A stretch of 64,000 bases of DNA from NCBI RefSeq assembly GCF_011045195.1, contig NZ_CP049199.1, positions 1,364,001-1,428,000 of the forward strand. The letters run 5' to 3'. The notes beneath the pieces are model-generated. The model had not been told where the DNA came from. It saw only the letters and a program-made list of their open reading frames with translations, and ran no database searches. Below, piece by piece: positions 41,857 through 56,169 of this stretch. The DNA is from Caulobacter soli (GTDB lineage Bacteria; Pseudomonadota; Alphaproteobacteria; Caulobacterales; Caulobacteraceae). A program made the position numbers and the translations under genes. Position 1 is the first letter of the stretch. Each line of letters opens with the position of its first letter.

Positions 41857-41867
41857 AAGCAACGTCC

Positions 41868-41996
41868 TCCGCCCCCTATGGGGGCGGACAGGCGGCGAAG
41901 CCGCCAGGTGGGGGCAAGTGGGTGAGCCACAGCGTTCTATGACCCACTTGCCCCCTACGGATCGCTTCGCAATCGTCTTCCCCCGCAGGGGGAAGA
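41868..41996. repeat. Dispersed palindromic repeat doublet (family A, ends inward)
   Basis: Left unit TCCGCCCCCTATGGGGGCGGA with GGCGGCGAAGCCGCC, ending CAAGTG; right unit CACTTGCCCCCTACGG with ATCGCTTCGC and CTTCCCCCGCAGGGGGAAG. The same two units as at 10922-11044 and 49722-49830, but with the CAAGTG ends facing each other. Confidence 0.8.
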
Positions 41997-48086: not shown

Positions 48087-48144
48087 CCCTCTCTCATAGA
48101 GAGAGGGAGGGGCCCGCGCCGAAGGCGTGGGAGGGTGAGAGGTT
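48087..48144 (+). repeat. Left 58-bp inverted repeat of DUF559 element
   Basis: Contains CCCTCTCTC-ATA-GAGAGAGGG and a hairpin GCGCC-GAA-GGCGT, ending GTGGGAGGGTGAGAGGTT. The reverse complement of 48549-48606 matches at 52 of 58 positions; four of the six differences are paired changes in the second hairpin stem, so pairing is conserved. Confidence 0.85.
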
Positions 48145-48480
48145 ACAATCTTTCAGGACGAAGCACGGCGAGGATGTCGCCGAAGCCGCCAGGGTCGGCC
48201 AACACCCTTTCGTTGGGAAGCCTCAAACCACATATCCGAACAGTTCCAGCGCCTGCGTGCGGCGCTCGTCATAGTCTTCCCGCCCCTCGTGCGCGAGGCC
48301 GTCCAGTTCGACGATCAGCTTGCCCGTCTCGCAGACGAAGTCAGCGAAGTAGCGGTCTATCGAGACCTGCCGCAGAAACCTGAACCCGCCCAGCTGCCGG
48401 TTGCGCACAAGCTTCCAGAGCGTCTTCTCGGCCAAGGTCTGGTTCTGACGAAGGCGGCGGGCGTTGGTGGTCTTGTCCAT
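48143..48480 (-). pseudogene. DUF559 endonuclease-like gene with a one-base frameshift
   Basis: From ATG 48480 the product reads MDKTTNARRLRQNQTLAEK, then LRNRQLGG-like (LVRNRQLGGFRFLRQ), IDRYFADFVC, KLIVELDG and ERRTQALELFGYVV, the DUF559 family related to Vsr/PD-(D/E)XK nucleases, but a stop follows at 48223 after 85 aa. Restoring one base in the AAA run at 48225-48227 (TTT to TTTT in the gene) reopens the frame with LRLPNERVLADPGGFGDILA and ends at 48143, the normal length. The gene fills the space between two 58-bp inverted repeats. A sequencing error could also explain the shift. Confidence 0.8.
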
Positions 48481-48548
48481 GCCCGGAGCATGACCTTGGC
48501 CCTTGGAGGCGCTCAACCTAAGAAATGGGGATTTTCGGCAAGCGGTGA

Positions 48549-48606
48549 AACCTCTCACCCTCCCACCGCTTCGCGGCGGGCCCCTCCCTCTCTCAAAGAG
48601 AGAGGG
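48549..48606 (-). repeat. Right 58-bp inverted repeat of DUF559 element
   Basis: AACCTCTCACCCTCCCACCGC... through CTCTCAAAGAGAGAGGG; mirror image of 48087-48144. Its inner hairpin is GCCGC-GAA-GCGGT when read on the complementary strand. Confidence 0.85.
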
Positions 48607-49721: not shown

Positions 49722-49830
49722 CACTTGCCCCCACCTGGCGACTTCGTCGCCTGTCCGCCCCCGTAGGGGGCGGAGCGCTCTTCCCCCTCCGGGGGAAGAC
49801 GACCGCGAAGCGGTCCGTAGGGGGCAAGTG
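49722..49830. repeat. Dispersed palindromic repeat doublet (family A)
   Basis: Same architecture as 10922-11044: outer CACTTGCCCCC / GGGGGCAAGTG ends, GGCGACTTCGTCGCC hairpin, CCGCCCCCGTAGGGGGCGG hairpin, CTTCCCCCTCCGGGGGAAG and GACCGCGAAGCGGTC hairpins, in 109 bp. Confidence 0.82.
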
Positions 49831-56106: not shown

Positions 56107-56115
56107 GTTTCGGGC

Positions 56116-56169
56116 CTCCGCCCCCTACGGGGGCGGACAGACCGCGAAGCGGTCAGGTGGGGGCAAGTG
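56116..56169. repeat. Single palindromic repeat unit (family A)
   Basis: CCTCCGCCCCCTACGGGGGCGGA followed by GACCGCGAAGCGGTC and GTGGGGGCAAGTG, a single unit of the family A element without its partner. It lies between recA and alaS. Confidence 0.75.

Follow-up and report, generated by a model that had tools for sequence, protein, structure and literature searches.

Why should a gene for a DUF559 endonuclease-like protein lie between two inverted copies of a hairpin-forming repeat? The question is raised by an element at positions 48087 to 48606 of a 64,000-nucleotide stretch of the Caulobacter soli genome, which we refer to as the window. The answer that we favor, and consider fairly probable, is that what we see is a nuclease-repeat element in degenerate form, DUF559 taking in such elements, by analogy, the role that REP (repetitive extragenic palindrome)-associated tyrosine transposases (RAYTs) have for REPINs. 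At the level of sequence, the family displays a gene-between-repeats unit, short derivatives, co-divergence of repeat and nuclease, purifying selection on the nuclease and site polymorphism between species, and the recurrence of this nuclease-plus-hairpin unit suggests an unrecognized kind of mobile DNA. The features of the window element, and its intact sister element elsewhere in the genome, are as follows.

48087..48606, no strand: whole element, 520 bp, consisting of repeat, DUF559 pseudogene and inverted repeat
48087..48144, plus strand: left terminal repeat, type I
48087..48107, plus strand: hairpin A of the left repeat (CCCTCTCTC/GAGAGAGGG), from folding, pair count and core-motif count
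48113..48131, plus strand: hairpin B of the left repeat, covarying and with a G-T pair, from folding and pair count
48132..48144, plus strand: purine-rich inner tail of the left repeat, unpaired in the fold, its mirror judged by eye
48143..48222, minus strand: remainder of the DUF559 gene, out of frame, from similarity to the intact copy, with the frame judged by eye
48226..48480, minus strand: reading frame of DUF559 (PF04480), cut short by a frameshift to the N-terminal 85 residues, from a profile match
48549..48606, minus strand: right terminal repeat, type I, inverted
48562..48580, minus strand: hairpin B of the right repeat, from folding and pair count
48586..48606, minus strand: hairpin A of the right repeat, from folding and core-motif count
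G000:C1:4851555-4852081 (in L001): sister element, 527 bp

Counted on the sequence, the two terminal repeats agree at 52 of 58 positions when one of them is inverted, and an inverted-repeat tool extended the arms to 68 nt at 85%. Four of the six mismatches make up two compensating pairs in hairpin B, while the remaining two fall in the loop of hairpin A; both the identity and the compensating swaps agree with what a sequence-only reading of this DNA had described. Each repeat folds as two perfect hairpins, at -16.7 kcal/mol each with DNA parameters, and the z-scores of the folds were -4.70 and -4.45, with none of 200 shuffles equally stable. The hairpin core CCCTCTCTC-N-GAGAGAGGG occurred twice in the window and not at all in 100 shuffles. 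We then compared 28 distinct repeat copies of equal length, taken from the source genome and from DUF559 loci of relatives, with a selection pattern that fixed most of hairpin A and left the middle of hairpin B free. None of the 17 pairs was broken in any copy (476 of 476 cells paired), 13 cells had changed on both sides, where 500 shuffles gave 1.3 on average, and structures shifted by 1 to 3 columns were only 47-70% paired. These three results indicate that pairing was kept rather than sequence, and the covariation supports the earlier proposal that the hairpin itself is under selection. By eye, the inner tail at 48132..48144 nearly mirrors the purine arm of hairpin A, and it may possibly serve as a triplex strand of the kind outlined by the motif description in the available text of PMC4666352.

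The open reading frame at 48226-48480 on the minus strand matched positions 2-85 of the 109 positions of PF04480 with an E value of 1.8e-33. Since a frameshift truncates this frame, the window copy is a pseudogene; the sequence-only reading was right about the family of the enclosed gene, but the copy here is a broken one. An intact sister gene (C1:4851631-4851951) lies between its own repeat pair, and the interiors of the two elements are 83.5% identical over 425 aligned positions. Among 23 reading frames (223 pairs), the median dN/dS was 0.18 at a median dS of 0.76, which places DUF559 under purifying selection. After the DUF559 structure itself, the nearest solved folds were those of a homing endonuclease and Vsr, and the profile match to 3r3p had an E value of 3.9e-4. 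PADLOC returned no match for the two proteins submitted.

The left repeat was found at no fewer than 45 places in the C. soli genome, a lower bound with 40 of 85 candidates scored, and by position and strand the copies form at least 21 inward-facing pairs and three singles. An 11-mer from this repeat occurred 58 times in the genome and its reversal once. Two of the 21 pairs enclose DUF559, 18 span 165-304 bp and one spans 649 bp, so that only 1 of 21 encloses an unrelated stretch and the repeats are not equally frequent beside unrelated genes, a result that could have told against the initial hypothesis. With 50 bp trimmed off either end, 18 of the 19 interiors without DUF559 matched the inner end of DUF559 elements (E <= 0.02 against a database of two sequences); the best matches were 14-58 bp long, their first 8-10 bp or so are still repeat, and several are weak. 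L010 alone matched over long stretches at each end (58 bp at 83% and 47 bp at 81%), and the interior of L036 did not match the inner ends of DUF559 elements. The short gene-less pairs thus appear to be REPIN-like or MITE-like (miniature inverted-repeat transposable element) derivatives of DUF559 elements.

The genome has four DUF559 genes, each bracketed by inverted repeats (scores 46, 40, 28 and 33), and these repeats are of three sequence types with a common two-hairpin anatomy. The type II repeat was found at 39 places and type III at 43 or more; three nuclease-repeat families, with one or two nuclease genes each, coexist in this one genome. The type III family, which flanks the DUF559 gene at C1:4147662, also has two copies in the window, at 41865-41970 and 56115-56167, of which the first has an inverted partner that extends to 41970. 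A palindromic pair at 49722-49830, about 1.1 kb from the DUF559 element, resembles type III by eye. The 649-bp type I pair (L034; G000:C1:1101245-1101893) surrounds an unrelated stretch whose open frames include one of 117 residues, and the orthologous site in a congener (L135) holds a 510-bp family element without DUF559, its open frames including one of 66 residues; the sequence inside both pairs is possibly captured cargo.

PF04480 was present in 114 of 149 Caulobacteraceae genomes. Using 400 bp on each side of the gene and a score of at least 18, flanking inverted repeats were found at 72 of 88 Caulobacteraceae DUF559 loci versus 0 of 106 control windows, the controls lying at least 1.4 kb away and coming from 53 of the tested loci. 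In a sample of the phylum, 26 of 48 loci passed versus 1 of 94 controls, and 38 of 42 named loci, nearly all from Caulobacter, passed as well. DUF559 genes elsewhere are therefore commonly flanked, and this result, which could have refuted the initial hypothesis, did not do so. The letters of the repeat vary widely among lineages (CCCTCTCTC, CCTTCTCCCC, CCTCCCC and others) and the anatomy recurs; as far as sequence can tell, every lineage of DUF559 comes with a terminal repeat of its own, built from hairpins A and B plus a purine tail. Repeat similarity tracked DUF559 protein identity among 66 loci (rho 0.75, 0 of 999 permutations) and also within single genomes (rho 0.81, 57 pairs in 14 genomes), and because of this within-genome co-divergence, shared host ancestry does not explain the relationship. 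At three Caulobacteraceae loci (L110, L112 and L127), DUF559 continues in frame into a protein that we take to be RibD-like, and the joining stretch (PSPQPSPRLRGEG-like) resembles translated repeat; a fusion between an element and a host gene may have taken place here.

We compared 20 congener stretches orthologous to six element sites of the source genome. Six (L131, L136, L137, L138, L139 and L141) were empty, with 6-35 bp between the aligned flanks, whose alignments end 0-47 bp before the source-genome element; a single hairpin was left at two (L130 and L140), and an element of the family was present at six (L132, L133, L134, L135, L142 and L149). The remaining six (L143-L148) held other sequences at these intergenic sites, mostly palindromic by eye, as if the sites were shared insertion spots. 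At C1:434870 the source genome has a gene-less element of 235 bp and the congener L142 a DUF559 element, whose gene translates without a stop and is identical to that of L203 from Caulobacter sp. UNC358MFTsu5.1. The alignment of empty with occupied sites, proposed earlier as a way to define a target, thus recovered empty, solo-hairpin and filled sites but no target duplication. Since the compared sites come from different species, gain, loss and replacement cannot be put in order. Flanks differ among elements, except for those at 206579 and 4830820, which are alike. The outer 12 nt of the two flanks resemble inverted copies, both in the 21 elements of the source genome (5.57 versus 4.14 permuted) and in 38 other elements (4.58 versus 3.56; 0 of 5000 in each set). 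At the 649-bp site, the right-hand TTCA is missing from the empty relative L131, so that target preference and templated addition are indistinguishable, and we dropped flank palindromes as a target rule for this reason.

A mechanism consistent with these observations would begin with recognition of the cognate repeat by the Vsr-like nuclease when the repeat is extruded or single-stranded during replication, perhaps via the G-T mismatch in hairpin B. DUF559 would nick there, acting in cis on its own element and in trans on the short derivatives, and the excised or copied strand would be re-inserted into intergenic DNA by host repair, without target duplication. Action on cognate hairpin ends in this manner may spread or maintain the family.

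Several points weigh against this reading. Cleavage and transposition are both inferred, and since a lone hydrolytic nuclease lacks strand-transfer activity, the reading has to call on host repair. Target duplications were not seen, direct similarity of the flanks being at the permuted level in the 21 own and 38 other elements, and the empty sites were found in other species rather than in an isogenic pair. The G-T feature of hairpin B is partly shared by descent and is absent from type III repeats. Co-divergence is also expected if nuclease and repeat merely travel together. The inverted-repeat threshold was missed by 16 of the 88 loci in Caulobacteraceae and by 22 of the 48 in the phylum sample, although 8 of these 22 carry a triplex motif on one side or nearby. 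Two genomes, G081 and G013, have 63 and 20 repeat copies, respectively, with no DUF559 detected in either. Several of the listed copies in G081 are 40-140 bp from contig starts, and the assembly may therefore break at elements and lose the gene.

The repeat pairs could instead be moved by another enzyme with DUF559 as cargo. A lone hydrolytic nuclease is an unusual mover, the two genomes just named are rich in repeats, the L034 pair (649 bp) surrounds unrelated sequence that includes an open frame of 117 residues, the congener holds a 510-bp family element without DUF559 at the L034 site, and the transposase search of the genome covered Y1 and no other families. Within that search no Y1 transposase was found in the source genome; moreover DUF559 is the gene enclosed time and again in the phylum, and within one genome the repeat type goes with the nuclease type, a match not required of cargo, so we regard this explanation as unlikely. 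Less likely again is a role in homing or maintenance, in which the nuclease cuts empty or damaged alleles and repair copies elements into allelic sites or keeps them clean, with no ectopic insertion. The nearest solved folds (homing endonuclease and Vsr, with the 3r3p match at E 3.9e-4) would suit such a role, as would the report that VsrA, a DUF559 protein, triggers SOS without the cytosine methyltransferase (PMC12907096, in the text available). Allelic copying does not, however, explain about 20 dispersed short-repeat sites, and flanks differ among elements apart from the pair at 206579 and 4830820. Finally, DUF559 might be an ordinary mismatch-repair gene, with repeats adjacent since both occupy variable intergenic DNA. 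The 16 of 88 loci below threshold fit this, and several repeat families do occupy common intergenic sites, but none of the 106 control windows at least 1.4 kb away reached the score, and the repeats are paired, inverted and specific to protein lineage; this model is strongly disfavored and, in our estimate, very improbable.

The nuclease-repeat reading also bears on the boxC/PIT/triplex motif (TM) repeats, known since the 1990s without an enzyme. As described in the available text of PMC4666352, the TM_ECO consensus is CCCTCNCCCN3-6GGGNGAGGGN3GGGNGAGGG, five cases in E. coli K-12 are in inverted pairs, and no transposase or integrase remnants are reported near the sites; that text contains 0 mentions of ycjD. 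The likeness to our repeats is a hairpin, CCCTCNCCC..GGGNGAGGG, followed by a further GGGNGAGGG strand. The window repeat differs in that CCCTCTCTC is combined with a 25-nt block in which hairpin B replaces N3, and in a slightly different tail, and it does not match the TM_ECO consensus. The strict consensus occurred within 600 bp of DUF559 at 15 of the 48 loci in the phylum sample and at 2 of the 88 from Caulobacteraceae, the two-hairpin form prevailing in this family. In the 48 phylum loci, there were 27 TM_ECO in 72.7 kb near the gene versus 2 in 107.1 kb farther out, a density about 20-fold higher near DUF559. Two of these loci (L172 and L193) have the gene between two inward TM_ECO copies, and others, among them L156, L158 and L165, have motifs on one side only.

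In E. coli K-12, ycjD is by annotation a DUF559 gene. A CCCTCGCCCCTCTGGGGAGAGGGTTAGGGTGAGGGG motif lies between ycjD and fabI, at 1356058 of the assembly, and a degenerate triplex motif overlaps the 3' end of ycjD. We take the former to be TM_ECO no. 9 in the published table (1351239-1351204, identical letters); nos. 16, 19 and 22 have the same letters but map far off. By arithmetic, with 18 TM loci in 4.64 Mb the chance of one within 200 bp of a gene of the size of ycjD is about 0.3%. The left side of ycjD has another hairpin and no triplex motif, and the E. coli copy is thus one-sided. In the sapF-ycjD-fabI regions L244, L245 and L251, this upstream hairpin has a long stem (CACCTCATTCTGACAAGA in L244, by eye) and bears no relation to the triplex motif on the fabI side; in strain ETEC6 (L253), IS1 interrupts ycjD. 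DNA similar to ycjD was found in 3365 of 5426 genomes. We dropped its presence or absence as evidence of mobility, since Nissle has other genes beside fabI (eefRABCD; PMC12817139, available text) and offers no clean empty site. Two records labelled as E. coli plasmids in PLSDB (NZ_CP141089.1 and NZ_OL790696.1) look like chromosomes, since they are 4.8-4.9 Mb in size and carry the sapF-fabI region.

A broader claim, to which we lean slightly less than to its denial, is that these elements may represent a new class of self-spreading DNA, in which a Vsr-like nuclease of about 113 residues, with no recombinase, would mobilize itself and REPIN-like derivatives via double-hairpin G-T ends, and which would be the source of boxC/PIT/triplex-motif repeats in many bacteria including E. 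coli. The link to DUF559 gives those repeats a candidate enzyme and a named E. coli gene, ycjD. It also offers a second reading of why VsrA damages Caulobacter DNA in some conditions: C. crescentus VsrA is a DUF559 protein, and SOS induction is described when the cytosine methyltransferase is missing (PMC12907096, in the part available). VsrA (CCNA_02930) could not be placed among our loci: of 80 reading frames, one had the LexA-box pattern described for vsrA, at position 3 rather than near 133. Among the titles and abstract openings that our searches listed from a library of open-access papers, with subscription journals mostly outside it, none ties DUF559 to such repeats.

Compared with known systems, the C. 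soli repeats are intergenic and palindromic like the CIR repeats of Caulobacter, which are known here through other papers (PMC2229807 and PMC10969869, in part). CIRs carry GANTC, whereas 0 of 42 type I copies do, and identity with CIRs was rejected. Vsr acts at T-G mismatches beside dcm, as PMC12907096 relates in part. The intact sister gene (L001), L004, L199 and the window frame were not listed for the Vsr family PF03852 at E <= 1, and L003 scored 16.7 bits, under the curated cut-off of 27. DUF559 shares its catalytic fold with the EDxHD homing endonucleases, and differs from these and from Vsr in being encoded inside a hairpin-ended element. The short elements resemble MITEs in having terminal inverted repeats and in deriving from a larger coding element, and target site duplication was not seen in the DUF559 family. 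A RAYT as mover in the source genome was rejected: the Y1 transposase PF01797 had 0 matches there and matched in 5 of 14 control genomes, other transposase families not having been searched. GTAG or CGTC was found within the outer 24 nt at only 1 of 42 termini, in a search that covered these two tags and not GTGG. Since both the Y1 transposase and the GTAG/CGTC tag are absent, the system works like REPIN-RAYT but is not a member of it. The differences are a Vsr-like nuclease instead of a Y1/HUH transposase, and a repeat of two hairpins and a purine tail. The likenesses, as far as the available text of PMC2817692 and PMC3116915 goes, are a single small nuclease gene enclosed by a pair of inverted palindromic repeats, numerous short inverted doublets that lack a gene (here 19 of 21 pairs lack DUF559), and co-divergence of repeat and enzyme. 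The layout of REP-associated tyrosine transposases with a different nuclease fold, as first suggested for this locus, is thus supported by a PF04480 gene enclosed by the repeats in a genome without PF01797, and if the favored reading is true, the RAYT/REPIN lifestyle would have evolved a second time, with an unrelated nuclease fold.
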